Origin: Gammaproteobacteria bacterium
GTDB lineage: Bacteria > Pseudomonadota > Gammaproteobacteria > Xanthomonadales > SZUA-36
Direction: 5' to 3'
Assembly (NCBI GenBank): GCA_021772915.1
Contig: JAJFLB010000056.1
Coordinates: forward strand, 62,001-126,000
Length of the DNA: 64,000 nt
The translations under genes and the position numbers were made by a program. Every line of letters begins with the position of its first letter. Position 1 is the first letter of the stretch. The notes beneath the pieces are model-generated. The model saw only the letters and a list, made by a program, of their open reading frames with translations. It was not told the origin of the DNA and ran no database searches. Positions 44,700-64,000 of the stretch are shown in pieces.

Positions 44700-44856
44700 C
44701 TGCCTTTATTCAATACTCCGGGTGTGGTTCCACAAGCAGGAGGGACTCGATACCGTAGTGTATCGGTTACCCGGTGGGAAATCAGTGACAATTCCCGTAG
44801 TTCCGAGATAGCCAGGCTCACCACACTACCCACCACTCGATGTTTCCTGCTTCAAT

Positions 44857-46035: not shown

Positions 46036-46079
46036 TTACCCGGTTCCCTACGGTCTGGCCGGCGACAATCAGCATTGCG

Positions 46080-47051: not shown

Positions 47052-47212
47052 ACATTGTCTCCACGTTGAGACTGCTTTCCAAGGCGCACATTTTGCTCGC
47101 GGACAGACATAAAGGTCAACCACTGAATGCGTGACTCGTGGCCATATTGCCGGTATCGTACTTGCTCTTGATGCGATAACACCCAGTGAGACCAAGGCAC
47201 TTGAGTTTACCC

Positions 47213-48217: not shown

Positions 48218-48286
48218 TCCGCAATGGCCCTCAGCACTTCGAAACTGTCATAATGCTACAGCACAAAATGTGTGGTACGGGTTGAC

Positions 48287-48994
48287 ATGGCTTTTTACTT
48301 TCGCGTCAACGAAGAACTCAACCTGGTCGCGGTGTTTAGTCCCAAGTGTGCCTGCACGAGCATCAAAAAGTGGATGGATGCACTCGCACAAGCAAGTGCC
48401 CGGCGGGCCGATCTTAACGCCAATCATGCCTACAATATCGGAGCAGACCAGTTTGCCGCCTACACGGGATACCGTACCGTATTGTTCCTGCGCGATCCGT
48501 TACGGAGGCTGGCCAGCTTTTACGCGCACTGGGTGGTCAAGCGGCCCGGGCGCTGGGATTTTGCGGACGCTGAGCGACGATTCTGGCTCCGTGGCAAATC
48601 GTTTCGCAGGTTCCTCTTTGTGCTTGACCACCTGGCGCGCCACGATCTGGCTTTCCAACATCATCTGGAGTCACAGCTCGGAAACCTGCCGGGGTTTGAA
48701 TTCCAACATCTGGTTTTGGTCGAAAACCTGTTGGAGGGAATACAAATGCTGAACACCGTGCTCGGTTACAAGGTCTTACCCGCAAAACGCTACAATTGCA
48801 TTCGCAAGAACAAACAGTTGACGGAATTTGTGGGTGACCGTACCCCCCGGTGGCTGGCCGAAAACGGTATACCAGATTACTCCTGGTTTTACGATTCTGA
48901 AATGGTGGCCATGGCCAAGCATATCTACACGCAGGATGTGGATCTTTACCAACGGCAAGGCGGCCAACTCCTCAACCCGGCAGAACCCTGCTGA
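48287..48994 (+). CDS. Sulfotransferase (Sulfotransfer_2 type)
   Basis: 235 residues from ATG 48287. The PAPS 5'-phosphosulfate loop is in 'LVAVFSPKCACTSIKKWMDA' (Lys and Cys-x-Ser) and the 3'-phosphate motif in 'TVLFLRDPLRRLASFYAHWV' (R...S). 'FDHLARHDLAFQHH'-like helices and the C-terminal 'YSWFYDSEMVAMAKHIYTQD' agree with carbohydrate sulfotransferases. Cytoplasmic by sequence (no signal). Probably sulfates the island's glycan; a second sulfotransferase domain is inside the protein at 57273. Confidence 0.82.
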   Translation: MAFYFRVNEELNLVAVFSPKCACTSIKKWMDALAQASARRADLNANHAYNIGADQFAAYTGYRTVLFLRDPLRRLASFYAHWVVKRPGRWDFADAERRFWLRGKSFRRFLFVLDHLARHDLAFQHHLESQLGNLPGFEFQHLVLVENLLEGIQMLNTVLGYKVLPAKRYNCIRKNKQLTEFVGDRTPRWLAENGIPDYSWFYDSEMVAMAKHIYTQDVDLYQRQGGQLLNPAEPC

Positions 48995-49172: not shown

Positions 49173-50168
49173 ATGAGCGATAAGCGCAAAACCAAGAAAG
49201 AACTTATTGAGGAACTGGAGGCATTACGCAGCAAGGTCGACAATGCCTCCGATGATGCTTCGCAGGGTGATAAAGGTGGGGAAGAGGAATCAACTGGTGG
49301 TCTGACCCGCCGCGAAGTTCTAAGCGGCTGGATCGCACCTGTAATCCTGACTGTGCCCGTGGTACCACGCGCCGCTGTGGCCCAGCAGGGTGGTGAGGGT
49401 CTTGAATTCGTGGCCTTTCCAACCGCGCTCGAAGTAGACCTGCAAAAAGCCGTGGTACCTACAACGGTCGCATTTATTGAGGCAGTTACCGCCAGCCCGA
49501 CCAATAACCCAACCAACAACCCGACCAACAACCCAACCAACAACCCGACCAACAACCCGACCAACGAGCCGACTACCGAGCCGACCAATGTCCCAACCAA
49601 TAGCCCGACCGGCAGTCCGACCACGGCTAACCCGACCAACAACCCGACAGTTCCAACCAGTAGCCCGACAGGCAGTCCGACCACGGCTAACCCGACCAAC
49701 AGCCCGACGACGAGACCGACCACGGCTAACCCGACGCAGAGTCCAGTTACTGCCAGCCCGACGCTGAGCCCGACCGCAGTCGCTACAACATTAAGTCCGA
49801 CCGGTAGTCCGACCACGGCTAACCCAACGCAGAGCCCGGTTACGGCTAACCCGACCAATAGTCCAACCGCAGCAACACCGACCACGGCTAACCCGACATT
49901 AAGTCCAACCTCCGCGGCACCGACCAAGAGCCCAACCCGGCGCCCAACCCGGAGCCCAACCTTTGCCCCGGGTGTGACTGCGGCGCCAACACAGAGCCCA
50001 ACCTCGGCAGCACCCACCAAGAGCCCAACCGCATTCCCCACGCAAAGTCCAACTACGGCAACGCCAACAACGGCGAGCCCTACCAGCGTGGCGCCAACGG
50101 CGAGCCCAACGGCTGCACCAACGGTTATCATTCCAGTTGAACTGACAGATTTCGAGGTTGACGGATGA
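49173..50168 (+). CDS. Tat-leader Pro-Thr repeat protein (proposed glycosylation substrate)
   Basis: 331 residues. Residues 1-42 are a charged, coiled-coil-like leader ('KKELIEELEALRSKV'). A twin-arginine signal follows: T45 R46 R47 E V L, hydrophobic 'GWIAPVILTVPVV', and an AVA cleavage site at 68-70. Residues ~108-318 are low-complexity repeats, first NNPT units (12-bp DNA repeats), then SPT, NPT, TANPT and SAAPT variants. The region has no Cys, Tyr or Trp and has Pro at every third or fourth position next to Thr or Ser. The tail is 'VIIPVELTDFEVDG'. Pro-Thr density like this suits hydroxyproline or Thr O-glycosylation. First gene of the operon, one base before the PqqD-GT gene. Export after cytoplasmic modification would suit Tat. 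Substrate role is inferred. Confidence 0.8.
   Translation: MSDKRKTKKELIEELEALRSKVDNASDDASQGDKGGEEESTGGLTRREVLSGWIAPVILTVPVVPRAAVAQQGGEGLEFVAFPTALEVDLQKAVVPTTVAFIEAVTASPTNNPTNNPTNNPTNNPTNNPTNEPTTEPTNVPTNSPTGSPTTANPTNNPTVPTSSPTGSPTTANPTNSPTTRPTTANPTQSPVTASPTLSPTAVATTLSPTGSPTTANPTQSPVTANPTNSPTAATPTTANPTLSPTSAAPTKSPTRRPTRSPTFAPGVTAAPTQSPTSAAPTKSPTAFPTQSPTTATPTTASPTSVAPTASPTAAPTVIIPVELTDFEVDG
49492..50127 (+). repeat. 12-bp-based Pro-Thr codon repeats
   Basis: In-frame tandem repeats of the type AACCCRACCAAC open the array (about six perfect or near-perfect 12-bp units at 49502-49566), followed by imperfect 12-18 bp units such as AGCCCGACC and ACGGCTAACCCGACC. All unit lengths are multiples of three, so copy-number change would keep the reading frame. 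Confidence 0.85.
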
Positions 50169-50169
50169 C

Positions 50170-51582
50170 ATGAGCCGGTCCAGGGCAGCCGGTAAGAGTG
50201 CCGGAAACAAGAAAAAGACAAGTAAGCAACCGGCCACTGGCAGAAAAAAACGCCAAAAAAGGGCTCCCAGGCAAGCAGAGACTTACCCATTGAGGCCACT
50301 CAAATTGGGTGGTCCGGAGTTGTACAGTGTCGCCGACGAGGCTGTGCTGGTGCCGGAGCAGGGTACGGACATATTTGCCCTCAATGCTACCGGTGCCCGG
50401 GTCTGGGAAATGTGTGACGGGCGTCATTCATTGCTTGATATGCATGACAAGCTGTGTGCACGTTTCGATGGTGACAAGGTGCAGGTGATGGCTGACATGG
50501 CCACTGCCCTGTTCCGCTTCCGCTCCCTGGATTTATTGGAACCACAATCACTCGTTGACCCACGGATCGCGAGAACCGGCACCATTGTGCTGGCACCCGG
50601 CGAAGACCCCCGCCCCAAGGTGCATATTGTGCACGGTATAGAAGACAATCATTATTTCCGTTGGCAACTGGCCATCATGTTTGAATCACTGGTGGGCAAG
50701 ATGCCGGCCGGTTGGGAAATCAAGGTTGTCGTGTGCAATGACCATCGTTCGATATCAGCGGATTTAAAACACATCCTTGACACCTACGATGTGCAGCATT
50801 TTACCGGCGAGAGCCACGCGGATAATCATCATATTGACTTCGCCGGCGGTGGTGACCGGTACGTACCCATGAACCGTGTCGAGGCTTTGAATATTGTCAG
50901 TCATCACGTGGCACCGGATGATCTGGTGTGCCTGATGGATACCGATATATTTCTCTACGGCGAACTCCGGCCGGAGCTGTTTCCCCGGCACAATGCCATG
51001 GCCAGCAACTGGATCATAGCGCAGGAAAAGTACTTCCAGTTTGCCGCCAATGACACCAAGGGTCTCCAGTTGCCCAAGCTACTGGAAGCACTGGGTTGTG
51101 AGCAGGAATTCAAACCTGGTGGCGTTATGGTTTTCCTTACCGGCGAAACACTCCAGCGCAATGACCGTAAAGTCATCCGCGACTGCTTCAGGTTTCTGCA
51201 GATTCACTTCCTGGCAGGTAAAATCCTGGATATGCCGCACCACGGTGTTTGGGTCGCCGAGATGGCTTGTTTTGCCATGGCCATGTACCCCAACGGGATC
51301 GATTACGAACTGCTGGAAATTGAACAATTCGCAGTCCAGGAGCAACATGCGGATGACCTGCCCGAAGGGACGTTTTTCCACTACTACACGGACATCAACG
51401 ATGAAGGCAGCCTTGGGCCGTTCTTTGAGTCCCAATGGCACAAGCAGCTGTTCTCCAACCAGGATTTCCTCAAGTCTGACATTGACAGTTTTCTGGATGT
51501 CGCAAAGGGTAAGGCAGAAATACAATTCATGACACTGGCCAAGCAGGCTCGAGACAGGTTATATGGAAAAGCAGATGACTGA
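50170..51582 (+). CDS. PqqD-domain / glycosyltransferase fusion
   Basis: 470 residues from ATG 50170, one base after the upstream stop. Residues 1-36 are Lys/Arg-rich. Residues ~38-120 are a PqqD-like domain: 'YSVADEAVLVPEQGTDIFAL' 'NATGARVWEMCDGRHSLLDM'. PqqD proteins are peptide chaperones (RiPP recognition elements) that hold a precursor leader for modifying enzymes. Residues ~135-470 look like a GT-A enzyme: 'KVHIVHGIEDNHYFRWQLAI', the DxD in 'DDLVCLMDTDIFLYGEL' (~257) and 'FKPGGVMVFLTGETLQRNDR'. GT family not recognised. Stop overlaps the next gene. Proposed role: leader-guided transfer of a sugar to the repeat protein. Confidence 0.75.
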   Translation: MSRSRAAGKSAGNKKKTSKQPATGRKKRQKRAPRQAETYPLRPLKLGGPELYSVADEAVLVPEQGTDIFALNATGARVWEMCDGRHSLLDMHDKLCARFDGDKVQVMADMATALFRFRSLDLLEPQSLVDPRIARTGTIVLAPGEDPRPKVHIVHGIEDNHYFRWQLAIMFESLVGKMPAGWEIKVVVCNDHRSISADLKHILDTYDVQHFTGESHADNHHIDFAGGGDRYVPMNRVEALNIVSHHVAPDDLVCLMDTDIFLYGELRPELFPRHNAMASNWIIAQEKYFQFAANDTKGLQLPKLLEALGCEQEFKPGGVMVFLTGETLQRNDRKVIRDCFRFLQIHFLAGKILDMPHHGVWVAEMACFAMAMYPNGIDYELLEIEQFAVQEQHADDLPEGTFFHYYTDINDEGSLGPFFESQWHKQLFSNQDFLKSDIDSFLDVAKGKAEIQFMTLAKQARDRLYGKADD

Positions 51583-52210
51583 CAGCAAGTTGACCAGGAA
51601 CCTGTTTGACATGCCCGAATGGCTCAAGCAACAAACCCTTGAACAGCAGGAAAACGCACCCTATTGCGGCTTGGGTTTTAAAAAAGGCCGACTGGAGCCG
51701 GATCTGCATGCCCGCATGTTGAAAAACATTGAAGAAAATGTTTCGCTGTTCCGGCCTGAGCATAATGTCAGAGAAATTGAATCTGTTGAACCCGGTGTCA
51801 TACCGGTGTTGTTTCACGAGGACCGCGAGTTCAACCAATCCATAATGGAGGCGCTCAAACCCGTGCATACAACCTGGTCGGGGATGCGTCTGGAGGAATC
51901 CGCCTGCTATGGTTTCCGAATCTACCAGCGTGGTTCGTACCTGTACAATCATGTAGACCGTACCCAGACCCACATTATCAGCTCCACCATCTGCGTGGAC
52001 CACCGTCTCGAAAAGCCCTGGCCACTTTACATCGAAGACATTGATGGCAACCCTTACCAGGTGGATATGGAACCGGGTGAGTTTGTGTTTTATGAGGGGG
52101 CACGGCTCATTCACGGTCGCCCCTGGGCACTTGATGGGGATTACTACATTGGTATGTTCGTCCATTATCGTCCTCAAGACATTGCCTCCCACCAGGCGCT
52201 ACAACGATGA
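51563..52210 (+). CDS. 2-oxoglutarate/Fe(II) oxygenase (prolyl-hydroxylase-like)
   Basis: 215 residues (ATG 51563; ATG 51575 also possible). The iron triad is His130-x-Asp132 in 'GSYLYNHVDRTQTHIISSTI' and His184 in 'EGARLIHGRPWALDGDYYI', with Arg186 for 2-oxoglutarate. The sequence parallels the second domain of the double oxygenase at 30500 over ~130 residues ('ESACYGFRIY', 'MFVHYRP'). N-terminal 60 residues are helical. It overlaps both neighbours, so it is translationally coupled in the operon. Expected: hydroxylation of Pro (or another residue) in the repeat protein, the step that would create glycan attachment sites. Confidence 0.82.
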   Translation: MEKQMTDSKLTRNLFDMPEWLKQQTLEQQENAPYCGLGFKKGRLEPDLHARMLKNIEENVSLFRPEHNVREIESVEPGVIPVLFHEDREFNQSIMEALKPVHTTWSGMRLEESACYGFRIYQRGSYLYNHVDRTQTHIISSTICVDHRLEKPWPLYIEDIDGNPYQVDMEPGEFVFYEGARLIHGRPWALDGDYYIGMFVHYRPQDIASHQALQR

Positions 52211-54222
52211 GACAGCTGTACTACACCAACTACGAATCGGGCCAATCCGGTCTGAGTAACGCGATTATGTCGATCGAAATTGGCGTGGTACTTGCGTTCC
52301 TGACCAATCGCTTCCTGTTGCTGGATGGCAACGTATCGCCGCCTGCCAACGTGGTGGCCTATGACGGACGTATTGACAACAAAGTCATGAGCAAAGTGAC
52401 TGACCTGCTCGACATTCCGGTGGCATGGAGCGAACCGGATAGCAAATCGTTGGCGAGAATAGATAGTCAGGAATTGACCGACCACCACCTGATGGATTCT
52501 GTTTTTTACGTGCCCGGCAGCGTCGATATCGACTCCGATGATGCCGGTCAGTTCGCGCGTGGCCGCGAGAACTGGCTGTGCGAAACCGAAGAATTGTTCG
52601 ACGTACCATTGCTAAGGGTTTCAGAAAAACCTAAGGCCAAAAACGAAAAGCGGCATCGGAATAACCTGGGATTCTATTCCTATTTCTTCTATTTCAATGA
52701 CGAAACCCGGCGCGCCGTCTACAAGGTGCTGGAGCGTATGCGGGCCAAGGCGCCTTTCGCAGAGCTGGCGCAGCAGGTGGCCAGGGATCTTGGCAAATTC
52801 AACGCCGTGCACATGCGACGTGGGGACTTCAAGGTGACCTACGGTGTGACCGTACTCGACCGCCATCCATGGGAAGCCATCGATGCACTGGACAAACATT
52901 TCAAACACGACGACCGGCTGTTGATCTGCACGGATGAACGGGATGATCCATTCTTCAAGGATCTGAAGGCCACTTGGAAAAATCACGTTTTCATAGACCA
53001 CCATATCCTTGATAACTATGGCAAGGAATTTTTCGACTTGCCACGACACGACAGCATTGCCCTGGCCTACCTTTCACAACTGGTCGCTGCAGAGTCACAG
53101 GATTTTATCGGTACAATGACCAGCACTTATACATCCATTATCCAGCGTCTGAGAGGTAATCGCGGCGCAGATGAGCCGTTCAAGTTCCTCTGGAACGAGC
53201 TGCCAGAACCGGATGACCGTTACGAACGCGGCCGTCATCCGGTCAGCGAGTGTGTACCACTGGAAAACGGTATCATGGTCGAGGAACTGGAAGGACCGTA
53301 TTCCTGGAATCGCTACAATCAACGAATCAACCCCGCCTGGATGCGTGAATGGCCGGAAAGCTTCCTTACTGACGCGGCCCTGGAGTCGGGAACCCTGCTT
53401 GCGGATGTGAAAACCAGGGTTGTTCCCCTTTCAGGCACTACTGCCCGCACCAAAGCACACTTACATTTCGAGGGGGTTCGGGTGCGGGTCAAAAGCTCAA
53501 TTCCGGGACTGGCATTCAGACTGTCAGAAGTGTTCAACCAGGGTGAACGCGGGGAGCAGAGCGCTATCATTGCCGACATTTCAGTCGAATCGAGTCAGGA
53601 TCAGTTTGTGATGTCTGCCGGCGGTCGTGAACTGGCTAACAGTGGAACACAAAAGAAAATCATCGGTGAGTTGATCAGGCACGTGGTCCGCGTTTTGACG
53701 GATGCCCGGCGCTATCACTGCTGGCTGATTGGCATACTGTTCAGAAAAAAGGAAAACACGATCGTCTACATAGGCGACCTGGGGGCGTCTGGCAAATCCA
53801 TTGCCGACGCCATGTGCACCTCCGGTTGGGAAATGCTGGCGGATGAAGTCATCCCGGTGCGTGTAAAGACCGCTGAGGCCATACCATTTGTACGCATGTC
53901 CTGGCCAAAAGGCGCTGCCGCGCGGTTAGAGTGGAATAAGACCAAGTTAGCCGCAGTCGTCCACGGGAGCGCTCGCCTGCATGGCAAGGACACGGTCACC
54001 CGGCTTACACCAGCTGTCGGCGCAGCCGAAATGCTGCAGCAATGTTTTGATTTTCGCTTTGACCGAAAACGTGCCACGGAGCGACTGTGCAAGGTTGCCT
54101 CTGTATTGCCGATCTACGCACTCTCTTTCAGTGAGTCATCCAGGGTACCTGGCGTGCTTGAGTTTTTGGCCTCACACGGCGACGCTGGTGAGAAAACTGC
54201 CATCGCATCGGGAGGTGGATAA
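52207..54222 (+). CDS. O-fucosyltransferase-like / HPr-kinase-like fusion
   Basis: 671 residues; ATG overlaps the previous stop. N-terminal ~390 residues resemble the O-FucT (PF10250) group: 'GLSNAIMSIEIGVVLAFLTN' 'RFLLLDG' and 'FNAVHMRRGDFKVTYGVTVL' (GDP-sugar site). The C-terminal ~260 residues are an HprK-related kinase domain: 'FEGVRVRVKSSIPGLAFRL', Walker A 'VYIGDLGASGKSIADAMCT' (GxxGxGKS-type, ~523-531), 'GWEMLADEVIPV' (Asp following the P-loop) and a C-terminal helical tail. HprK-related proteins paired with PqqD homologs form a known but uncharacterised bacterial system. Here both partners are fused to glycosyltransferases. Kinase target unknown. Confidence 0.8.
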   Translation: MRQLYYTNYESGQSGLSNAIMSIEIGVVLAFLTNRFLLLDGNVSPPANVVAYDGRIDNKVMSKVTDLLDIPVAWSEPDSKSLARIDSQELTDHHLMDSVFYVPGSVDIDSDDAGQFARGRENWLCETEELFDVPLLRVSEKPKAKNEKRHRNNLGFYSYFFYFNDETRRAVYKVLERMRAKAPFAELAQQVARDLGKFNAVHMRRGDFKVTYGVTVLDRHPWEAIDALDKHFKHDDRLLICTDERDDPFFKDLKATWKNHVFIDHHILDNYGKEFFDLPRHDSIALAYLSQLVAAESQDFIGTMTSTYTSIIQRLRGNRGADEPFKFLWNELPEPDDRYERGRHPVSECVPLENGIMVEELEGPYSWNRYNQRINPAWMREWPESFLTDAALESGTLLADVKTRVVPLSGTTARTKAHLHFEGVRVRVKSSIPGLAFRLSEVFNQGERGEQSAIIADISVESSQDQFVMSAGGRELANSGTQKKIIGELIRHVVRVLTDARRYHCWLIGILFRKKENTIVYIGDLGASGKSIADAMCTSGWEMLADEVIPVRVKTAEAIPFVRMSWPKGAAARLEWNKTKLAAVVHGSARLHGKDTVTRLTPAVGAAEMLQQCFDFRFDRKRATERLCKVASVLPIYALSFSESSRVPGVLEFLASHGDAGEKTAIASGGG

Positions 54223-55238
54223 TGGCCAGCCATGAGGATACCCAAGCAGGCGGGCGCATGATCTCGGTCCAGTTGCAGCTGGAGAGTGGTCATGAACTGA
54301 AACTTACCCTGGGCGAGCAGTCCCCGGAACTGGTGACCCTGTTCCGCATTCTGGCCAGCAGAAATTCCGACACCGTGACGCCGGCCGAACAGTTCCTGCA
54401 ATTACCGCTGAATAATGGCGCCGCTGCGTGTTCATTCCATTCCCGTCAACTGGTCTCCATCATCACGGAACCCCCGGTGGTGGTCCAGTTGGAGCAGGCC
54501 GAGACACCCGAGACAGCACCGGTCGCAACAGCTGTGCCACCCACTGTCGTGGTGAATACACCGCGTTACCTGATCATTGATGATTTCCTGGGACACGACG
54601 AACACCGGGACATGCTGGCTTTTGCAATGAACCACGAGGATCAGTTTGAAGCTGGAACGGTGGTGGGACATGAAACACCACATCGAAAGAATCAGGTTAT
54701 CCTGAGTTTTGCTGAGACGGCCCATGCCAAGTTATTGTCTAACCGACTGCTGACCTGGCTACCCATGTTGACTGAAGAACTCCAGATGGAACTGTTTCCT
54801 GTCCGCTTTGTTGAATCGCAGCTGACAGCCAGCAACGATGGACATTACTACCGCGTACACTGCGATACCGGCGCCGACGAGGCTGACTTTCGCGCCATCA
54901 CGTGTGTGTACTACTTCTTTCGTGAGCCACGTCCTTTCAACGGCGGAACCTTGCGACTGTATGACAGCATAAATCAGGGTGACCGGCGCGAGGCCAGCGG
55001 AAGTTACCGGGAAATCGAGGCAGTCTCCAACCGACTGGTGGTATTCCCAAGTTCCGCGCACCATGAACTCATGCGCATCCGCTGCCCATCGGGGAAATTC
55101 GGTGACAGTCGCTTCGCCATAACCAACTGGATCCAGATCAGCCCTGAACCACGACCGGATGACACCTTTGGTTGGGGTCACCTGCGTTGTGGCGTCCTGC
55201 CTGCACAATACGGTGACCTCGCAGGAAGTTCACAGTGA
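54222..55238 (+). CDS. 2-oxoglutarate/Fe(II) oxygenase (P4H/Tpa1-like) with N-terminal shared module
   Basis: 338 residues. Residues ~14-88 are the small module shared with the oxygenase at 30500 and the protein at 57273 ('SVQLQLESGHELKLTLGEQS', 'QFLQLPLNNGAAACSFHSRQ'). The catalytic domain (~115-310) has 'RYLIIDDFLGHDEHRDMLAF', His213 and Asp215 in 'HYYRVHCDTGADE', 'ITCVYYFFREPRPFNGGTLR', His280/281 in 'FPSSAHHELMRI' and Arg297 in 'GDSRFAITNWIQ'. This is the DSBH order of prolyl-hydroxylase-like oxygenases. ATG overlaps the upstream TAA by one base. Cytoplasmic. Confidence 0.87.
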   Translation: MASHEDTQAGGRMISVQLQLESGHELKLTLGEQSPELVTLFRILASRNSDTVTPAEQFLQLPLNNGAAACSFHSRQLVSIITEPPVVVQLEQAETPETAPVATAVPPTVVVNTPRYLIIDDFLGHDEHRDMLAFAMNHEDQFEAGTVVGHETPHRKNQVILSFAETAHAKLLSNRLLTWLPMLTEELQMELFPVRFVESQLTASNDGHYYRVHCDTGADEADFRAITCVYYFFREPRPFNGGTLRLYDSINQGDRREASGSYREIEAVSNRLVVFPSSAHHELMRIRCPSGKFGDSRFAITNWIQISPEPRPDDTFGWGHLRCGVLPAQYGDLAGSSQ

Positions 55239-56365
55239 TCATCACCGTATTTGTAACCACTGCCGATGAGAGCGATCAGTGGCGGGCTGAATTGCTCGAG
55301 CACTCCTGGATGCAGACGCAACAACCCGGTGAGTTGGTTCGGCTGGTAGCCAGTTCATCCGCTACGCCGCTGCCGATGCACAGTCTGGCTCGAGTGGTAC
55401 GTACCCGGCCTTACAGTCCACACCCGTATATTGATGACCGTTTTCCCGGTTACAATCAACCAGGTGCACTGCTGGAATGGCTGTTCCATGAACGGATCGA
55501 TGCAACGTTGCTGTTACTGGACAGTGACTGCCTGATGCTGAAATCCGTGACGGAGGAGCTTGCACCGGGCGAAGCCATCGGCAACCCATGGCGCGAATGG
55601 CCGAAGGGCGAAGGACCATTCGGATTATCCGAGGACTATCAAAATCTGCAGGCTTTTTGTGTCAATCGTGATTTAAAGCCATCCAAAATCAGGTTTCCCT
55701 TGCTCATCCATTCCCGGGACCTGAAGAAAATGGCGGCCCGCTGGCTGGAACTGACAGCACTGATCCGCTGTGAGGTTAACTACACGGCAGGCAAAGTCCC
55801 CGAGGCACACCAGGTGGCCTACACCATCGCGGCTTCTGAATACCGGATTCCCCACAAGGTTCAAAAATTGGCCGTGATCCCCAGCGACCGAAAGATCGAC
55901 CGGCCATTGTTAAGCTACCAACAAGCAGTGGAGTCCCCAAGAGGGGAAATTGTCTGGAGTTCAGAGACATACTCGCCGTGGTCGAAATGCAAGCCTGAAA
56001 AAGCAAAGGCCGGCGTCGGACGTCAATTCCTCGAGAGACTCAACAAATACGTGTCCCTGGTCGATGCGGGCGAACAACTGCGATTTCACCGGCCGTTGCG
56101 CTGTCATGGCGTACGTGAAGCGCGCTTGCCTGGAAAGATGTTGCTGGAAATACCCGACGCGGAGCGGCCCGTGACTCTCAATGCCTCGGCTGCCGCCATC
56201 TGGGATCTGTGCGACAACCAGCGTACACTTTCGGAGATCGCGGATGTGCTCGAGAAGCGATTCGATGTAGCACGTAGCATACTGTGTCGGGACATCGATT
56301 CGACAATGAAGCATTTACACACTGACGGCGCCGTCGTTTTGGAACCTGCCACCCATGACCACTGA
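55235..56365 (+). CDS. HPAT-like glycosyltransferase with C-terminal PqqD domain
   Basis: 376 residues from GTG 55235, overlapping the previous stop. The N-terminal ~250 residues have 'VFVTTADESDQWRAELLEHS' 'W', 'FPGYNQPGALLEWLFHERID' 'ATLLLLDSDCLMLKS' (DxD-like site), 'GNPWREW' and 'PLLIHSRDLKKMAARWLELT'. The order of these segments parallels plant peptidyl hydroxyproline arabinosyltransferases (HPAT, GT95) and their relatives; similarity is by eye and moderate. Residues ~283-370 are a PqqD domain ('VTLNASAAAIWDLCDNQRTL' 'SEIADVLEKRF'). If correct, this would be the enzyme attaching the first sugar to hydroxyproline, docked by its own leader-binding domain. Confidence 0.7.
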   Translation: MIITVFVTTADESDQWRAELLEHSWMQTQQPGELVRLVASSSATPLPMHSLARVVRTRPYSPHPYIDDRFPGYNQPGALLEWLFHERIDATLLLLDSDCLMLKSVTEELAPGEAIGNPWREWPKGEGPFGLSEDYQNLQAFCVNRDLKPSKIRFPLLIHSRDLKKMAARWLELTALIRCEVNYTAGKVPEAHQVAYTIAASEYRIPHKVQKLAVIPSDRKIDRPLLSYQQAVESPRGEIVWSSETYSPWSKCKPEKAKAGVGRQFLERLNKYVSLVDAGEQLRFHRPLRCHGVREARLPGKMLLEIPDAERPVTLNASAAAIWDLCDNQRTLSEIADVLEKRFDVARSILCRDIDSTMKHLHTDGAVVLEPATHDH

Positions 56366-57272
56366 TCAAGCCAAGGCCAGCATTTTCGTTTCAATTGCCT
56401 CCTACCGGGATGAGTTTCTTCCTTTTACCATCAGGTCTGCCCTGGAACAGGCCGCCCATCCTGAACGTCTGACCTTTGGTATTTGCTGGCAGGCTGACGA
56501 GACAGAAAATCTCGATGAGTGGCTGGAAGACCCGCGTTTTCGCATACGACGCTACCCCTACCAGGCCAGCCTTGGCTATGGCTGGTCACGTACTGAGATC
56601 CAGAAGCTGTACGCCGACGAAAAGTACCATCTGTTGATCGATTCCCACACCTGGTTTGCCAAGGGCTGGGACGACAACCTCATTGGGCAACTGGAAAGCA
56701 AACCCGGCAAAAAGCCGTTGTTAACCACCAGTTCTCCACCGTTCACTTTTGACGGTGCAGGTGAAGTTGTCATTCCATGGGCCGGTACAGACATGGATGG
56801 CGTCCCCCTGATGACCTGCGAGGTGATTCCACCGGTCGGTTGGATTGATATCCAGATGTCGCCGCAACGCAAATCCAGGAAGCACGAACTTACGGCACTG
56901 GTGTGTTGTAATTTCGTATTCACACATGGAAGCTGGATCCGCGAGGTTCCGGAAGATCCCGCCATGATCAACGCCGGCCACGAGGCCGCACTATCGGTCA
57001 GGACCTACACGCACGGCTATGACATCTACCTGCCTGACGAATTGCAGATCTGGCACCTGGATTACGACAATTACCCAGATGGCGAGCGCCACAAGGTGTG
57101 GGAGGCAAAGACGGACCGCTGGCAGGCTGAGCATACCGATGGCATGATTCGTCGGCTGCACGCATTGTTCTACGGCAAAGAATCCCCGTCGATTCTGGGT
57201 CGGTATACCCTGGGTGAGGTACGCAGCCTGGATGAGTGGGCGGAACTTGCGGGTCTGAAGCTGGAAATCTAA
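56355..57272 (+). CDS. GT60-type (Skp1-hydroxyproline GlcNAc-transferase family) glycosyltransferase, second copy
   Basis: 305 residues. 'SIFVSIASYRDEFLPFTIRS' and 'HPERLTFGICWQADETEN' match the opening of the gene at 47213. The metal-site strand is 'YHLLIDSHTWFAKGWDDNLI' (D-S-H), and 'NAGHEAALSVRTYTHGYDIY' 'LPDELQIWHL' is the C-terminal family motif with the acidic residue in GHEAAL. Overlaps the upstream gene by 11 bp and its stop abuts the GTG of the next gene. Likely adds a HexNAc in the operon's glycan. Confidence 0.85.
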   Translation: MTTDQAKASIFVSIASYRDEFLPFTIRSALEQAAHPERLTFGICWQADETENLDEWLEDPRFRIRRYPYQASLGYGWSRTEIQKLYADEKYHLLIDSHTWFAKGWDDNLIGQLESKPGKKPLLTTSSPPFTFDGAGEVVIPWAGTDMDGVPLMTCEVIPPVGWIDIQMSPQRKSRKHELTALVCCNFVFTHGSWIREVPEDPAMINAGHEAALSVRTYTHGYDIYLPDELQIWHLDYDNYPDGERHKVWEAKTDRWQAEHTDGMIRRLHALFYGKESPSILGRYTLGEVRSLDEWAELAGLKLEI

Positions 57273-60200
57273 GTGCCGGAACGGCAACTTCAGCCCAGGG
57301 ATAGACCCGAAACCCCGGTATGGTGTGAGGATGCGGAGACCGCACCGCTGGATATCATCGTGTTCAGCAAAGACCGGGCTTGCCAACTCGACGCTTTACT
57401 CCGCAGTATGCGTGAGTTCTTTGACCTACCGCACCGACTGCACGTGCTTTACACAACCTCCAGCTCCGAATTTGAGCTGGGGTATGACTTGCTGCGCATA
57501 TGGCACCGTGGTGTACGCTGGGTCGGCGATGGGGGTGTATTTGGTCTGACCATGCAGAAACTGATGGCCGCCATTGACCGCGGTCCTGGCCGCTACCTCA
57601 TGTTCCTGGTTGACGACATGATGTTTACACGGACTTTTACCGCCGGGAAACTCATGGAATCCCTGAGTGATGACGACGATATTCTCGCGGTCTCCTTACG
57701 CATGGGTGAAGACATTACCTATTGCTACGTGCGTGATATCCAGACCACCCCTCCTGACTTCAGCAAGGGTTATCGGTGGAGTTGGAAAGACGCCAGTACG
57801 GGGTACTGGAACTACCCCATGTCACAGGACGCACATATATTTCGGACAAGCGATTTTGCCGAGCTTCTGCCCCGGTTACGTTTTGTCAACCCCAATACAC
57901 TGGAGGCTACGCAGTCCGGTCATCCGTTTCCGCGCCCCGACATGGTCTGCGAGGCGACTTCCTGTGTCATCAATATCGCAGCCAATCGGGTACAGTCCAT
58001 CTATAAAAACCGCTGCGGAAACATCAGTGCAGAGTTTTTGAACGAATCTTTTCTGGCCGGTCTGGCCATTGATGTTGTGCCCTTTACCGGCAGGGTTTAT
58101 AACTCCTGCCATATCGATGAAGACCTCGCTTTAATCGATGATAAACGGGACCGGTCTCCGCATGGTTTTGAGAAGTTCGAGCGCAACGGCCGGCAGTACT
58201 TTCGTGTCGATCTGCGCAAAATACCCACCTTTGTGCTGAATTGTGAAGACGACACTGAAAAACGCTGGTTAATGCAGGAGCAATTGACTGAGTTGGGGTT
58301 GAACTTTGAGTTCATACCCACGTTGAAGGTCAAGCCGGGCTGGGTCGGCGTCGCGCTCGCACACCTGAAGGCTCTGCGTCTTTCGCGTGCGGTCCCTCCT
58401 TTTCTTGTGCTGGAAGATGACTGTGTTTTCAATACACACTTCCAGCCGGTAATCGAAATTCCAGCCGAGGCCGAAGCTGTTTACCTCGGTGTCTCCATCT
58501 TTGGGCTTGAAAAACCGGGCAAAATGAGCTGGGGCAAACCCGACAAGGTCTTGTGGGAGCATTTCGATGAAGGCTATTTACGCGTCCACAACATGCTGGC
58601 CCGACATGCTCTGCTCTACCTTGACGAAGACTTTCAGTCAGCAGTAATTGGTTCACAAGTCGAGGCACTCACCAACCGCCAGCTGTCACACATGGGTGAT
58701 ATCGGGGTGGCAATGCTCCACCATTCACACACGGTGCTGGCTTTGGATCGTAACGTTTGCCGGCAAAGGAACCGAAATACCACCGACAAAGACCTTGCCG
58801 AAGCATTACCCGGTAACGAAATCCGGCCTGCTGGCAGCGAAGCGGTAAAACCTGCCCATTCCGTTCCACAAACTGGAAACAAGAGCAGGTTACCCAGAGG
58901 GCGCCACCTGGTGTCGCACAAGTACCGATTCATCTATTTTTCAATTGCCAAGAATGCCAGTAGTACTCTGCGAACAGAACTAGGCAAACCTCATTATCAG
59001 TGCGAGGACATCCGCTTCACCCAACAGGATGAAGCGATTGTGAAAGAATATTTCAAATTCACTTTTCTGCGTGATCCTGTATCCCGGTTTGTATCCGCCT
59101 ACCAGGAAGTTTCTCTTCGGGGTGAAATGGATGATTCCGGTGTGCAGAAAAAACCATTTATGGAACTCGAAGACAACTCTGAAAGATTCGAAGCTTTTTT
59201 AACACAGGTCGAAGCAGAAAAGTGGGACACGCATGTGCGTACTCAAAGCGACGCAATCGGCCATTTCCACATGGATTTCTATGGCCGGATTGAGTCCCTG
59301 GAAAATGATTTGCAGCTGTTGTTTGACACATTGGGGCTTCCTGATTGCCCCCCATTACCCATGCGCCGCTCACGTGCCGGTCGCAAGAGTGATTACGACT
59401 ACGACCGCTTTAATATCGACCACAATCAATTACCACAGGAGCAAATTGACCGGATTCGCGAACTGTACAAGGACGATGTCGCACTGATGCAAGCTTTCTG
59501 TCCCGAAGCGACGGGCCCAAACGGTGATTCGATTGCCAGAATATCCAGCCGGGTCAGGGCCCTAAAAATTGAAGAACAGGGTAAATTACCACCGATCGAG
59601 TTGTTCAAACGCGTCAACACGGAACACGAGCAATGCATGGTCTATGTTTTAGGTGACCGGGGTTTTTACGCCGAAGTCACCACGGTTGCACGTGCCATGA
59701 TTTACGCCTGGGTACATGGTTATCAGTTATTGTTAGCCTCCAACGCCTCTTCCTGGGCGCATGAGAAAGGCTGGGCCGACTATTTCGAACCCTTTTGCCC
59801 GGAACCAGACGAGGTTGACGCCAAAAGGATCGTAGAAAGTATCGAGTTCCGGCACGACGGAGACAAAACAGACTTCAATCGTCTGCGGGGTTTCATGCCT
59901 GAAGTACTGTCATTCGGCCAAACTCACCTGCGAGGTTTCCAGGAAATTCTGGCGTTTTTTACGACCATGATCTTTCGGCCCACACCTGACTGCCAGGTCA
60001 TGATTGATGAATTGACAGCCTCACTTAATCTTCCCGATGAGTATGACGCCATTCACGTGCGCCGGGGTGACAAGGTGGGCGATGAAGACGTCTACTATCC
60101 TGTCGAGGAATACCTGGACGGCCTGGGGCCGCTGAGCGCTGGCCGTACAGTGTTTGTTATGAGTGATGCCTGGGAGGCCGTGCAGCAAGTGCGTGACCAT

Positions 60201-63200
60201 CTCGATGAGTTGGGCACCTCAGTCCGCGTTGTAACATTGGTCCAGCCTGATCGCACCGGCTTCGACGTCTGGAAACTCCGTCGTGGCGAGCCCTTCATTG
60301 GAGAAGGAAAGCAACAGTCGGATAAACAGCTCGAAAAATACTATGTCCGCGACAACACCCGCATGCTGATCGCTGAAACCCTGATTGCTGCAGGTGCAAA
60401 ACGATTCGTTTCCACCTGGCTGTCCAACGTAGGGCGTACCGTGTGGTTCCTGCACCCACAAAGGCAAAACTGCAAGCTGCTGCAGAGTACCGGCAGTACG
60501 GACTCGGATCAAGCCCAATCCTCATCTGCTACCACCACTCACCATTGGGCCAGCTTGCGCGACCAGAGAAGCCTTCAGAGACGTCGTAAACAGTACTCCA
60601 ACACAAACCGCGGATTTCGGCACGCAGTCGTGTACCAACTGTCCGGACAGGACCTGTTTGAAGAACTTTCAGGCCTGGCGCGGGCCATGATTTATGCCTG
60701 GTCCCATCAGCGGCAGCTGCGACTGGAGGACGATAGCCTGGTCAGGAACGGCGGTAGTCACTGGCACGAACTGTTCCAGGCCCTGGTGCCTGAATGTGGG
60801 GGTTTCAAAACAACGAGGATTAAGGAACGGTTTTCGATCACAGATAAAGATGGGTTCGGCAAACTCTCCGGTTTTCAACCAGAACGTCTGAGTTTTGGAT
60901 CGACCGCACTTCAAGGATTCCGGGAGATTCTGGCCTTTTTCATGCAAATGCTCTTCTGGCCCACATCAGCCAGTCAGGGCCGCATAGACCTATTGCTGCA
61001 AGAATTACCCTTATCCGATAACTATGACGCTCTGTACTTTGGGCCCGGCGAAGCAACTGACAATATCAGCGTGGTAAGCCAATCTTTGCAACGTCTGCAA
61101 CCAATACCGGAAGACCGTTCAGTGTGCGTGATCACCGGCAATGATGAAGTATTTTCCGAGGTTGGCAGAGGTCTGGCTGCAGGTGGTTACAAGACCCGTT
61201 CCAGCATCCTGCGGCAAGCAAAAAATGAAGATCAGCTCGCGCAGGAAACCCGGTCCCTCGCCGAACTCACACTTGCCCTGCGTGCCCGGTGTTTCGTGGC
61301 ATTGGCGGACTCACGTTTTGGCCAGGCGGCCTGGTTGCTGCACCCAAGAAAAGCCGGCTGCCACCTGCTGGACAGGATAGGGAGTACCAAGCCCGCAGAA
61401 AACGGTGCCATGGTTTGCGCGGAACTGCAATTGCGTGATGGCCGCTTGTTCGAGCTGGATCTCCCGGCCAATTCCCAACATCTCGCACGACTGCGAGACC
61501 TCTCCAGCTACGCCACGCAAACTGCCAGTATGGTGCAACTACCGCTTAATGGTGGGCATTCAGCACTGGCCTTCTCCACCAGTGACCTGGTCCATCTGAA
61601 GTTAGAGCCCGTTTCGTCCCATGCTCCAGATCTGCTGAATCTGACCACCCCCCACCCACAGCCCGTGTCCAAACACAATGGGCCGGTATTCATGAACACC
61701 GATGAGGGACATCTGGGTGGCTACGTACGTGCCGCTCACCCGGTCTCGGTGCAGAGAGGGTGGCACAACGGAGACCCGAAGTGCTGGAACCCCAAACTCT
61801 GGGACTGGGCCTGCAAAGCTCTCAAGGTTCGCTCGGTGATGGATGTTGGCTGTGGTGAGGGTCACTCCGCTAAGTACTTTCAAGATCTGGGGTGCCGGGT
61901 GCTGGCCATCGATGGCAGCGTCCAGGCGCAACGAGACAGCGTGATTCCTGACCGGCACGTGCGGCATGATTTCATCAATGGGCCCTACATCCCGGCCAGA
62001 ACCTTCGACATGGTGTGGTGCTGCGAATTCGTCGAGCACGTGGAAGAAAAATACTCACATCATTATCTCACCACGTTTTCACTTGCCCGGAAATACATTT
62101 TTTTGACCTATGCAGTACCCGGGCAACCTGGCTGGCATCACGTAAATTGCAAACCCGAGGGCTATTGGGTGAGTAAACTCGAAAGACTGGGGTTTGAGCT
62201 AGACAATGATCTCACCAGCCAGGCCCGGGAGATCGCTGAACCTGGCCATTTCAAGCCGCGGGGACTGGTCTTTGTACGTGTGGATGGAACTCGTCTTGCA
62301 TTACCCGAAACTGCGGCTGGTGAAGCATCGACAGTTGGTCCCGCACGGGGCCTGATCGCAGCATCGCGACAGGCCTTGCCAGTGAAAAACATGCTGATCA
62401 CGACCATACATGATCGTCGTTTTTTTCTGTTCCTGGACATTTTTGTACACCCGGACCGGGAAAAAATTGTTGCGGTTATGCCCTGGTATAACGAGGACTG
62501 GGACCCGCGATCGGAGGGCATAGACTTTAGCAAAGTGGAGTTGCTCTACCGCGGTAAACGAATCAGGGGCACGTATATTCCTCACCGACTTGATTCATGG
62601 GAACCTTGTGCGTTGCTGGACTTTGAAGACCCGCTGTTGGCGAAGTGGCTCAAAAAACGTAAATCCGTCAGCATTCAGATCAAAGCCGGACCACATTCCA
62701 GGAAATTCAAGCTCTCGACCCAACCACAGCCCGCCTACAACGTACTGATGAGTCTGGTAATCAAGAATGAAAACCGCTGGGTGCGTCACTTCCTGGAGTA
62801 CTACCTGGAATGCCTGCAAGTCGATCACGTGCTGGTCTACGATAACTTCACCAAGGACCGTGACGCATTGCTCGAGATACTGAATCCCTACCGCAAGACC
62901 GGCAAGGTCACTTACATCCCCTGGAGTTATCGCTGGCGCAACATGGGTAGCCCAAAGAAGATGATCGCCCAACCGCAGCAGGAGGCCCATTCCCTGAATC
63001 GTTTTGCGAATTCACGCTGGATCGGCTTTCTTGACGTGGATGAATTCCTGCGTCTGCCCGGCACAACCCTGCCGCGGTTCCTGGGGTCTTACCAGGGCGC
63101 CAATGTGGATGGCTTGTCATTCGGATTACGCTGGTTCCACTACCAGGGGGCGTTGGAATTTAATGAAATCATTGATGTCCCGCTTACCTTCCGTCGCTCA

Positions 63201-64000
63201 CGTCGCTCCAGGCTGGGCAGGAAACGGCAAAAATTCCTGGTTTCACCACATCAGGTTCGTTTCCTGCGTCTGCATACATTGGAAGAGGGTGGACGTGAAC
63301 TGCAAATCGATGACACGGACATCTATTTCCACCACTACTGCCAACGCGATTACCGCTTCAAACAGGAAGAAACAGAGCAGTACCAGTACGACGACTACAT
63401 GATGCAGTTCGCCGATCGCCTAACGCTGGACGGTACAGGCGATGCGCGCCCGGAAAAACCCTCCAGCCCTGAAGCGTGGATCGGCCATATTAGCCGTGCT
63501 ATCGCCGAAGCGGAGTGTGGCCGCTCGAAACTCAACCGTGAAGGGCTGGCAGTGAAAGGCTACTGCGGGGTTCAGACCCGGCATTTTTACAACAATATCT
63601 GTAACTTCAATGGCTGTCGCTACCTGGAAATCGGGTCATTGCATGGCGCCAGCACCGTGGCCGTCATGGCCGGCAACCAACTGGATCTAACTTGCATCGA
63701 TAACTTTTCCCAGTTCCACGGCAGTCAACAGGAATTCGAGGCCAATATTCAACCGTTCAGGGGCGATAATCATCTCAGCCTGCTTACCGAGGATTGCTTC
63801 GCTATGGACACGGCCGGAATGGGTCCATTCGATGTCTACCTGTACGACGGCGCCCATAGCTACGAAAGCCAGTACAATGCCATCAAGCACTATTTCAACA
63901 CATTGGCGCCACTGGCAGTCGTCATTGTTGATGACTGGAATTGGTGGCGGGTACAGAAGGGTACTCAGGAAGCGCTGGACGAATTCAACATCCCGGTTCT
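57273..64000 (+). CDS. Giant multidomain glycan-tailoring enzyme (>=2242 residues, runs off the window)
   Basis: One frame stays open from GTG 57273, directly after the upstream TAA, to the window end with no stop. Modules in order: (1) ~26-300 GT-A-like ('DIIVFSKDRACQLDALLRSM', 'MFLVDDMMFTR'); (2) ~317-500 GT25-like ('IPTFVLNCEDDTEKRWLM', 'FLVLEDDCVF'); (3) ~550-740 sulfotransferase ('FIYFSIAKNASSTLR', 'FTFLRDPVSRFVSAYQE'); (4) ~790-1070 GT23-like ('GFYAEVTTVARAMIYAW', 'AIHVRRGDKVGDED'); (5) ~1116-1367 a second GT23-like copy whose HVRRGDK is replaced by YFGPGEA; (6) ~1380-1447 the small module shared with the oxygenases; (7) ~1520-1660 methyltransferase ('VMDVGCGEGHSAKYF'); (8) ~1700-2040 GT92 ('NVLMSLVIKNENRWVRHFLE', 'FLDVDEFL'); (9) ~2090 onward Methyltransf_24 ('YLEIGSLHGAS', 'VIVDDWNWW'). 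No signal peptide. Probably a cytoplasmic assembly line for the operon's glycan. Confidence 0.88.
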   Translation, partial: MPERQLQPRDRPETPVWCEDAETAPLDIIVFSKDRACQLDALLRSMREFFDLPHRLHVLYTTSSSEFELGYDLLRIWHRGVRWVGDGGVFGLTMQKLMAAIDRGPGRYLMFLVDDMMFTRTFTAGKLMESLSDDDDILAVSLRMGEDITYCYVRDIQTTPPDFSKGYRWSWKDASTGYWNYPMSQDAHIFRTSDFAELLPRLRFVNPNTLEATQSGHPFPRPDMVCEATSCVINIAANRVQSIYKNRCGNISAEFLNESFLAGLAIDVVPFTGRVYNSCHIDEDLALIDDKRDRSPHGFEKFERNGRQYFRVDLRKIPTFVLNCEDDTEKRWLMQEQLTELGLNFEFIPTLKVKPGWVGVALAHLKALRLSRAVPPFLVLEDDCVFNTHFQPVIEIPAEAEAVYLGVSIFGLEKPGKMSWGKPDKVLWEHFDEGYLRVHNMLARHALLYLDEDFQSAVIGSQVEALTNRQLSHMGDIGVAMLHHSHTVLALDRNVCRQRNRNTTDKDLAEALPGNEIRPAGSEAVKPAHSVPQTGNKSRLPRGRHLVSHKYRFIYFSIAKNASSTLRTELGKPHYQCEDIRFTQQDEAIVKEYFKFTFLRDPVSRFVSAYQEVSLRGEMDDSGVQKKPFMELEDNSERFEAFLTQVEAEKWDTHVRTQSDAIGHFHMDFYGRIESLENDLQLLFDTLGLPDCPPLPMRRSRAGRKSDYDYDRFNIDHNQLPQEQIDRIRELYKDDVALMQAFCPEATGPNGDSIARISSRVRALKIEEQGKLPPIELFKRVNTEHEQCMVYVLGDRGFYAEVTTVARAMIYAWVHGYQLLLASNASSWAHEKGWADYFEPFCPEPDEVDAKRIVESIEFRHDGDKTDFNRLRGFMPEVLSFGQTHLRGFQEILAFFTTMIFRPTPDCQVMIDELTASLNLPDEYDAIHVRRGDKVGDEDVYYPVEEYLDGLGPLSAGRTVFVMSDAWEAVQQVRDHLDELGTSVRVVTLVQPDRTGFDVWKLRRGEPFIGEGKQQSDKQLEKYYVRDNTRMLIAETLIAAGAKRFVSTWLSNVGRTVWFLHPQRQNCKLLQSTGSTDSDQAQSSSATTTHHWASLRDQRSLQRRRKQYSNTNRGFRHAVVYQLSGQDLFEELSGLARAMIYAWSHQRQLRLEDDSLVRNGGSHWHELFQALVPECGGFKTTRIKERFSITDKDGFGKLSGFQPERLSFGSTALQGFREILAFFMQMLFWPTSASQGRIDLLLQELPLSDNYDALYFGPGEATDNISVVSQSLQRLQPIPEDRSVCVITGNDEVFSEVGRGLAAGGYKTRSSILRQAKNEDQLAQETRSLAELTLALRARCFVALADSRFGQAAWLLHPRKAGCHLLDRIGSTKPAENGAMVCAELQLRDGRLFELDLPANSQHLARLRDLSSYATQTASMVQLPLNGGHSALAFSTSDLVHLKLEPVSSHAPDLLNLTTPHPQPVSKHNGPVFMNTDEGHLGGYVRAAHPVSVQRGWHNGDPKCWNPKLWDWACKALKVRSVMDVGCGEGHSAKYFQDLGCRVLAIDGSVQAQRDSVIPDRHVRHDFINGPYIPARTFDMVWCCEFVEHVEEKYSHHYLTTFSLARKYIFLTYAVPGQPGWHHVNCKPEGYWVSKLERLGFELDNDLTSQAREIAEPGHFKPRGLVFVRVDGTRLALPETAAGEASTVGPARGLIAASRQALPVKNMLITTIHDRRFFLFLDIFVHPDREKIVAVMPWYNEDWDPRSEGIDFSKVELLYRGKRIRGTYIPHRLDSWEPCALLDFEDPLLAKWLKKRKSVSIQIKAGPHSRKFKLSTQPQPAYNVLMSLVIKNENRWVRHFLEYYLECLQVDHVLVYDNFTKDRDALLEILNPYRKTGKVTYIPWSYRWRNMGSPKKMIAQPQQEAHSLNRFANSRWIGFLDVDEFLRLPGTTLPRFLGSYQGANVDGLSFGLRWFHYQGALEFNEIIDVPLTFRRSRRSRLGRKRQKFLVSPHQVRFLRLHTLEEGGRELQIDDTDIYFHHYCQRDYRFKQEETEQYQYDDYMMQFADRLTLDGTGDARPEKPSSPEAWIGHISRAIAEAECGRSKLNREGLAVKGYCGVQTRHFYNNICNFNGCRYLEIGSLHGASTVAVMAGNQLDLTCIDNFSQFHGSQQEFEANIQPFRGDNHLSLLTEDCFAMDTAGMGPFDVYLYDGAHSYESQYNAIKHYFNTLAPLAVVIVDDWNWWRVQKGTQEALDEFNIPV

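Follow-up and report, generated by a model that had tools for sequence, protein, structure and literature searches.

The giant gene and its modules

We analysed a window of 64,000 nucleotides from a Gammaproteobacteria bacterium (GenBank assembly GCA_021772915.1, contig JAJFLB010000056.1, positions 62,001 to 126,000 of the forward strand). At its 3′ end lies a giant gene that carries glycosyltransferase (GT), sulfotransferase and methyltransferase modules in one chain. It is the last gene of an operon that also encodes a Pro/Thr-rich precursor, the proposed substrate. Coordinates are window positions unless a contig is given (G000:C52 is the source contig), and numbers such as 50158 denote window genes.

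The frame starts with a GTG at 57273, immediately 3′ of the TAA of the preceding gene. Its last whole codon inside the window ends at 63998, and in the contig the stop codon ends 139 bases beyond the window. An earlier note, made from the sequence of the window, had described an uninterrupted frame of at least 2242 residues running past the window end, to be given up if stop codons interrupted it. In the source contig the frame is complete at 2288 amino acids (6.9 kb), with no internal stop codons. Annotation of the complete gene, which the same note had proposed, gave ten modules. The G + C content along the gene is fairly even, between 0.493 and 0.575 in blocks of up to 200 codons, compared with 0.528–0.567 in seven other genes of the island. 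The open frame is confirmed as real.

57273..63998 (window part; ends at G000:C52:126139), plus strand: giant gene, 2288 amino acids when complete
57273..58187, residues 1–305, plus strand: module 1, predicted GT-A fold glycosyltransferase, GnT-I-like
58188..58862, residues 306–530, plus strand: module 2, GT25-like glycosyltransferase
58863..59582, residues 531–770, plus strand: module 3, Sulfotransfer_2 (Pfam 3.7e-15)
59583..60587, residues 771–1105, plus strand: module 4, GT23, FUT8/NodZ-like, HVRRGDK present
60588..61403, residues 1106–1377, plus strand: module 5, second GT23 copy, 33% identical to module 4
61404..61622, residues about 1378–1450, plus strand: module 6, small domain common to oxygenase N-termini
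61710..62282, residues 1480–1670, plus strand: module 7, class I methyltransferase (Methyltransf_11 1.7e-7)
62370..62738, residues about 1700–1822, plus strand: module 8, domain of unrecognised fold preceding GT92
62739..63452, residues 1823–2060, plus strand: module 9, GT92 glycosyltransferase, DVDEF conserved (Pfam 9.6e-11)
63510..63998 (cut by the window), residues 2080–2288, plus strand: module 10, class I methyltransferase (Methyltransf_24 9.4e-11)

Pfam searches with the whole protein gave four matches above the curated cut-offs (Sulfotransfer_2 3.7e-15, Methyltransf_24 9.4e-11, Glyco_transf_92 9.6e-11 and Methyltransf_11 1.7e-7) and two below them (FUT8_N_cat 1.7e-5 and Glyco_transf_25 0.0086). 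Overall, the chain holds four intact-looking GT modules, one degenerate GT, one sulfotransferase, two methyltransferases and two domains without recognised activity. The earlier note, with at least nine modules, three to five of them GT-like, one sulfotransferase and two methyltransferases, thus had both count and kinds right. At least two GT domains share the chain: GT92 scores above the cut-off, module 4 resembles FUT8 and module 1 is placed by its fold, module 2 being weaker. The term assembly line, used in the note, was dropped. Since no carrier or condensation-type domain occurred among the 11 Pfam matches at E ≤ 1 over 2288 amino acids, the protein is not like a polyketide synthase or nonribosomal peptide synthetase, and poly-enzyme is the better word.

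Module 1 had no Pfam match, and its sequence search against the PDB gave nothing beyond chance matches (E 0.06 and worse), for the most part to antibody chains. Its relatives were encoded at 44 viral loci, of which 39 were taken into alignment A3 (40 rows); L077, L083, L088, L092 and L096 were left out, as their rows nearly repeat another row. The AlphaFold2 model built from these 40 sequences reached a pLDDT of 86.9. Its best structural matches were GnT-I and POMGNT1 (Z 13.2 and 13.1), the first with an rmsd of 3.7 over 200 aligned residues and 12% identity; Foldseek gave E-values of 5e-7 to 6e-7, with TM-scores of only 0.45–0.47. The model suggests a GT-A fold glycosyltransferase nearest to GnT-I (a GT13 enzyme) and POMGNT1. 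Residues D114-D115 were invariant in 40 of 40 rows, at the position expected for the acidic metal-binding pair of GnT-I.

Searched alone, module 2 matched Glyco_transf_25 just below the cut-off (6.3e-5) and phrog_24091 at 1.6e-30. The best solved relatives of module 4 were FUT8 structures (E 1.5e-5). The HxRRxDK motif, which has a recognised role in GT23 enzymes, is present there, with hvrrgdk lining up with hvrrtdk of FUT8, at a Pfam FUT8_N_cat score below cut-off. In module 5 the HxRRGDK motif is replaced, and likewise in the copy of a second metagenome-assembled genome (MAG) described below, pointing to a degenerate GT23 paralog only. Module 6 (residues 1381–1446) was matched, among 309 sequences, at E 1.2e-8 by a hidden Markov model made from four oxygenase N-termini; the same type of domain begins the proteins 54222 and 30500 and a methyltransferase of a third genome, G263. 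Module 8 had no Pfam match and no PHROG match better than 0.23. The hhalign alignment with the GT92 gene 36207 starts inside it (E 7e-6, probability 84%), its last third or so aligning with the N-terminal part of 36207, and module 8 is perhaps the N-terminal half of a GT92 unit. Module 9 is the most conserved module, 77% identical to the copy in the second MAG. A structure model of modules 5–10 from the two-sequence alignment A1 had a pLDDT of 29.0 and was not used.

A six-module relative in a second genome

We scanned a bacterial and archaeal genome collection with six peptide patterns of the giant. A single relative was found, on the stretch L020 of the MAG Halieaceae bacterium SI047_bin19 (here G101; “SI” presumably stands for Saanich Inlet):

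L020:1384-5418, plus strand: fusion of modules 5–10 in a 1344-amino-acid frame, with a truncated GT10-like front joined in frame

Modules 5–10 follow one another as in the giant, at 63% identity. About the first 113 residues are of GT10 type, 75% identical to window gene 42757, and the joint with module 5 looks like a deletion or a partner swap. By eye, the two genes 3′ of the fusion look like the pair of genes behind the giant. Between giant and G101, the proportion of nonsynonymous differences (pN) was 0.15–0.32 and that of synonymous differences (pS) 0.67–0.84, pN being less than half of pS in all six modules, the degenerate module 5 included (0.29 vs 0.72); pS is saturated, and two of the six modules lie beyond correction. 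Between modules 7 and 8, identity falls to 31%. The unchanged order of six modules at 63% identity, with pN well below pS, argues for long maintenance as one chain. From this and the even composition we conclude that the C-terminal 1180 residues are a real single chain; modules 1–4 within this chain were seen on one contig only.

The whole giant, compared with 100 relatives, gave one single-module match in each of ten other genomes and its architecture in none. Parts of it were matched by 45 records of a phage collection and by 12 plasmid records, none covering 80% at one place, and no stretch of the viral contigs matched the six peptide patterns. Two viral-contig fusions join the module 1 family to GT2/TOD1-like GTs (L066:2237-5539, 1101 amino acids, and L068:2717-4777, 687 amino acids, the latter in the order methyltransferase–GT2–module 1); these stretches matched no other giant module at E ≤ 1e-5. 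They resemble the giant in fusing module 1 relatives to other GTs, and differ in having fewer modules and in lying on viral contigs.

The operon and its Pro/Thr-rich precursor

Across the G101 family (140 genomes, G101 included), the search gave one further match to the giant at E ≤ 1e-15, in G263. The matching gene encodes 280 amino acids with modules 6 and 7 only (61% identity over 196 amino acids) and follows a GT60 gene 79% identical to 56355. This gene order places the giant in the operon slot of a small methyltransferase. With a module 6-7 protein in that slot, an ancestral methyltransferase was probably the core around which the giant grew, apparently on both sides, and modules 6-7 are apparently the operon’s own methyltransferase. 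The ends of G101 contigs suggest that C66 and C292 of that MAG adjoin within a GT60 gene.

The genes ahead of the giant are the following:

47186..48217, plus strand: GT60a (PF11397 3.6e-45), 74% identical to G263
48272..48994, plus strand: sulfotransferase gene between GT60a and the precursor, where G263 has 52 bases instead
49173..50168, plus strand: precursor (proposed substrate), 331 amino acids, PT repeat model 1.5e-6
50158..51582, plus strand: PqqD-domain protein 50158 (PqqD at residues 61–126, 3.2e-12), 60% identical to G263
51563..52210, plus strand: putative 2-oxoglutarate oxygenase 51563 (HxD...H by eye), 57.5% identical to G263
52207..54222, plus strand: protein with O-FucT-like N-terminus and HprK-related C-terminus (O-FucT 2.1e-5, TIGR04352 0.0017, both under cut-off)
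54222..55238, plus strand: prolyl-4-hydroxylase-like 2-oxoglutarate oxygenase (2OG-FeII_Oxy_3 9.8e-17), module 6-type N-terminus
55235..56365, plus strand: putative glycosyltransferase with C-terminal PqqD (9.3e-12; HPAT 0.0018, under cut-off)
56355..57272, plus strand: GT60b (GT60-type 1.5e-44), 79% identical to G263, ending where the giant begins

Nine genes are colinear between the window and G263: GT60a, precursor, 50158, 51563, 52207, 54222, 55235, GT60b and the module 6-7 methyltransferase or giant. The seven enzymes ahead of the last gene are 38–79% identical, and each of the seven gene boundaries between precursor and giant in the window is overlapping or touching (longest-frame starts). 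PF11397 corresponds to family GT60.

Both precursors begin with a leader of the pattern MSD..KTK.EL..E..ALR.K ... LTRREVLS..W(I/V)APVILTVP, in which RREVLS is followed by a hydrophobic stretch; the RR ahead of this stretch in both might mark a twin-arginine (Tat) export signal. The leaders are 58% identical over the first 64 amino acids, and a longer local alignment has 52 of 127 positions identical. The core of the window precursor, within boundaries that we cut ourselves, spans 214 amino acids (29% Thr, 22% Pro), contains 45 Pro-Thr pairs and precedes the tail IPVELTDFEV. The G263 precursor is shorter (124 amino acids), with a similar leader and tail around a 46-amino-acid Pro/Thr/Ala core (33% Pro, 22% Thr), and the tails share the pattern IPVE(L/I)(T/S)DF(E/D)(V/I). 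A leader search in three genomes recovered both precursors and one match at chance level (E 0.41). A conserved leader and a variable core next to the enzymes, here known from two precursors only, are arranged as in pathways for ribosomally synthesised and post-translationally modified peptides (RiPPs) that depend on a RiPP recognition element (RRE).

The PqqD domains of 50158 and 55235 both score above the Pfam cut-off, and the long C-terminal part of 50158 reads, by eye, as a glycosyltransferase. Gene 51563 had no Pfam match; the corresponding G263 protein shares 43% identity with the C-terminal half of 30500. Among solved structures, 54222 is closest to prolyl 4-hydroxylase (P4H) alpha, 6t8m (E 2.3e-5), which indicates homology, not activity. 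For GT60b, a sequence search of the PDB gave nothing below E 0.37.

In a class sample of 369 genomes, gene 50158 occurred in its own genome only, and among the 140 genomes of the G101 family it occurred in G263 only; 55235 was present in 1 of 151 genomes, its own, the 150 relatives being negative. Class and order samples were drawn from larger groups, so that rarity figures are rates in samples. The plasmid search for 50158 gave no match, and 24 stretches of the viral contigs fitted a pattern, none of them confirmed. As both genes are rare among the sampled relatives, horizontal transfer of the operon is likely.

Local genes and other relatives of the modules

The earlier note had suggested that the giant was assembled from genes of the same island. 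This held for the two GT23 modules and for the module 6-7 core; it found no support for modules 1, 2, 3 and 9 and is weak for module 10. Closest relatives were ranked by scores.

For module 4, the local GT23-like homolog 35128 named in the note is indeed related (33%), and the source contig carries a closer one outside the window:

G000:C52:139079-141202 (L003:79-2202), minus strand: two-GT protein, 707 amino acids, N-terminal GT23 and C-terminal FUT8/NodZ-like half

Its N-terminal GT23 part (C52:140177-141064) is 39–40% identical to module 4, and the two-fucosyltransferase-like protein is a second, smaller poly-GT on the source contig. There, four GT23 domains in three genes are 22–40% identical where aligned. 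At E ≤ 1e-6, module 4 matched nothing among the 368 other genomes of the class sample; on plasmids it reached 26.5% among the matches listed. As the G101 island carries a copy 34% identical to module 4, the GT23 duplications may predate this genome.

The sulfotransferase gene 48272 (48287 in the note), proposed as a relative of module 3, is 23% identical and not among the own-genome matches at E ≤ 0.01; homologs of module 3 occur in 13 other genomes of the order at 28–36% (E 6e-10 to 6e-6). They were the only matches outside the own genome when modules 1–3 were searched in 397 genomes of the order (13/397). Likewise, the GT92 gene 36207 is only 22% identical to module 9 and absent from its own-genome list, against 30–37% in two relatives; module 9 and 36207 are homologous all the same (hhalign E 7e-6). 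The Methyltransf_24 gene 29748 is homologous to module 10 (41.6 bits; hhalign E 2e-7 over 47 columns) but is outscored by cyanophage proteins, which reach 81–84 bits over the whole module (25%, E about 1e-13).

For modules 1 and 2 there was no local homolog at E ≤ 0.05, and the local GT-like gene 40911 showed no relation to module 1. A phage match of module 1 was 36% identical (E 3e-39), and module 2 is 27–34% identical to cyanophage and marine-virus homologs. Among what was searched, the best scores thus fell to marine or large-phage genes for modules 1, 2 and 10, and to other bacteria for modules 3 and 9. The phage matches do not establish phages as the source of modules 1, 2 and 10, because the wider bacterial collection was compared only through six peptide patterns.

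The surrounding island and related loci

Upstream of the operon, window positions 29000–47000 are a dense mosaic of single GT genes on both strands (GT2, GT10 twice, GT61 twice, GT92, Nucleotid_trans), with a DUF1796 gene and an epimerase. Further features of the island and of related loci are:

30500-32161, minus strand: 553 amino acids, module 6-type N-terminus, 2OG-FeII oxygenase and an oxygenase-like half related to 51563
38794-39735, minus strand: Calx-beta protein, C-terminus with IPTLG, a hydrophobic stretch and RR
L024:3288-4925 (G101): 545-amino-acid protein like the 30500-32161 product, by eye
L024:7727-8914 (G101), minus strand: PqqD and a NodZ-like region (below cut-off) in one protein
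G263:C1 upstream of the operon (L033), minus strand: 562-amino-acid protein, by eye a GT–sulfotransferase fusion
G263:C1 upstream of the operon (L033), minus strand: 225-amino-acid protein with 29% identity to module 3 across 159 amino acids

The C-terminus of 38794-39735 resembles, by eye, an IPTL-CTERM sorting signal. L024:7727-8914 may be a further fusion of RRE and GT, but G101 yielded no precursor leader at E ≤ 1.

A proposed leader-guided glycosylation pathway

Gene, modules, operon order, the leader/core/tail pattern of the precursors and their conservation are observations; from them we infer a pathway in which each reaction, the order of the reactions, the hydroxyproline link, the cytoplasmic location and the export route are predictions. 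The best reading of the operon would be a leader-guided, possibly hydroxyproline-linked glycosylation pathway. We give an even chance to the giant being its cytoplasmic poly-enzyme, which would finish the glycans on the secreted Pro/Thr-repeat protein of its own operon.

In this pathway the PqqD domains of 50158 and 55235 would bind the conserved leader of the precursor, and the P4H-like 54222, perhaps with 51563, would hydroxylate prolines in the PT repeats. A GT60 enzyme would attach the first sugar; the Skp1 hydroxyproline GlcNAc-transferase belongs to this family, and Gnt1 is a GT60. The giant would then extend and cap the chain with its GnT-I-like, GT25-like, FUT8-like GT23 and GT92 modules (1, 2, 4 and 9), module 3 would O-sulfate, and modules 7 and 10 would O-methylate it. 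The degenerate GT23 (module 5) and module 6 may serve as binding or scaffold parts. The finished protein would be exported via the twin-arginine-like signal. That module 6 is common to the P4H-like enzyme and the giant counts for this pathway. PqqD-like domains serve as leader binders in RiPP pathways, and proteins fusing an RRE to a glycosyltransferase were predicted earlier (PMC7470986). Many RREs, the group of PqqD included, are reported to bind W/Y/LxxP/L/I (PMC12710340). The W(I/V)AP of both leaders fits this motif, but so loose a motif proves little. No RRE was reported for the cacaoidin cluster (PMC8068269), which is not drawn on here.

Several observations weigh against this pathway. 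The giant itself had no PqqD match in the Pfam search of the whole protein. G101 keeps modules 5–10 without a detected precursor leader and without a 50158 homolog at E ≤ 1e-12, so these modules at least may have another target, unless the MAG is incomplete. Modules 6-7 are all that fills the slot in G263, where no other part of the giant matched at E ≤ 1e-15; the extra modules are therefore not essential to the pathway. The glycosylated residues could be Thr, Ser or Asn of the repeats rather than hydroxyproline, and only two precursors were found. Some genes downstream of the giant look, by eye, like polysaccharide O-acetylation genes, presumably MBOAT/AlgJ-like.

The giant might instead decorate a surface polysaccharide or lipopolysaccharide, its position behind the PT-protein operon being incidental. 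The many GT genes of the island (GT2, GT10, GT61, GT92 and others) with the epimerase on both strands, and the presence of modules 5–10 in G101 without precursor or 50158, would suit such a role. GT25 enzymes and sulfate or methyl caps are also common on polysaccharides. The giant, however, begins right after the GT60b stop, in the slot held by modules 6-7 in G263, and shares module 6 with the operon’s P4H-like enzyme, and we consider a polysaccharide role unlikely, if the most serious competitor. Somewhat less probable still is a fusion without biochemical meaning, in which stops between neighbours were lost and modules act or are cleaved separately, some of them decaying. The lost HxRRGDK of module 5, the differing front ends of the giant and the G101 fusion and the 31% identity between modules 7 and 8 would fit it; the six-module order kept at 63% identity, with the low pN of all six, stands against it. 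An assembly or binning artefact joining unrelated genes is very improbable: the source is a 71-contig assembly with modules 1–4 in chain on one contig only, but an independent record (L020) has modules 5–10 fused in identical order, which makes a chimera unlikely, modules 6-7 are one gene in a third genome, and the frame stays open for 6.9 kb at fairly even G + C.

Comparison with known systems

Returning to the leader-guided pathway, its parts have partial counterparts. In chlorovirus PBCV-1, A064R (638 amino acids) combines two rhamnosyltransferases with a methyltransferase, which act one after another (PMC9614988), and A111/114R (860 amino acids) joins three GTs (PMC7826918). Like these, the giant has several GTs and, as in A064R, methyltransferase modules in one chain that would build a protein glycan. 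It differs in having ten rather than three domains, with a sulfotransferase and a degenerate GT copy, neither mentioned for the viral enzymes in the cited passages. Those enzymes make viral N-glycans and have no leader-guided substrate, whereas the operon of the giant has a leader-bearing precursor.

In Dictyostelium, a pentasaccharide on Hyp143 of Skp1 is the joint product of PhyA, Gnt1, PgtA and AgtA, with P4H and then Gnt1 acting first (PMC3515798). The operon resembles this pathway in its P4H-like enzyme, GT60-type enzymes and further transferases; unlike it, the system is a bacterial operon with a leader-bearing repeat protein, PqqD domains, and sulfotransferase and methyltransferase modules. 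With RRE-dependent RiPP pathways it shares the PqqD domains, a precursor that comes first among touching genes, the conserved leader and the variable core. It differs from them in its substrate, a PT-repeat protein of up to 331 amino acids with a conserved tail, which is not known to be cleaved or to yield a peptide natural product.

Significance

In the open-licence PubMed Central literature searched, no paper brought a glycosyltransferase, a prolyl hydroxylase and PqqD together. In its fullest form, which we put forward as a tentative hypothesis somewhat short of an even chance, this would be a bacterial mucin- or extensin-like pathway. Leader-guided PqqD GTs and a prolyl hydroxylase would start hydroxyproline glycans on a Pro-Thr protein in the cytoplasm, and a ten-module poly-enzyme, derived from a methyltransferase via phage-type and locally duplicated transferases, would extend, fucosylate, sulfate and methylate them before export. 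If true, RiPP-style leader-guided modification would be joined with hydroxyproline/mucin-type protein glycosylation, and glycan synthesis would gain a one-chain enzyme that combines several GTs with methyltransferases and a sulfotransferase. Should the predicted activities be real, the giant would be an unusually large one-chain glycan-building machine. As a case of poly-enzyme growth, it allows a small gene (G263), six modules with another partner (G101) and ten modules (the window) to be compared.

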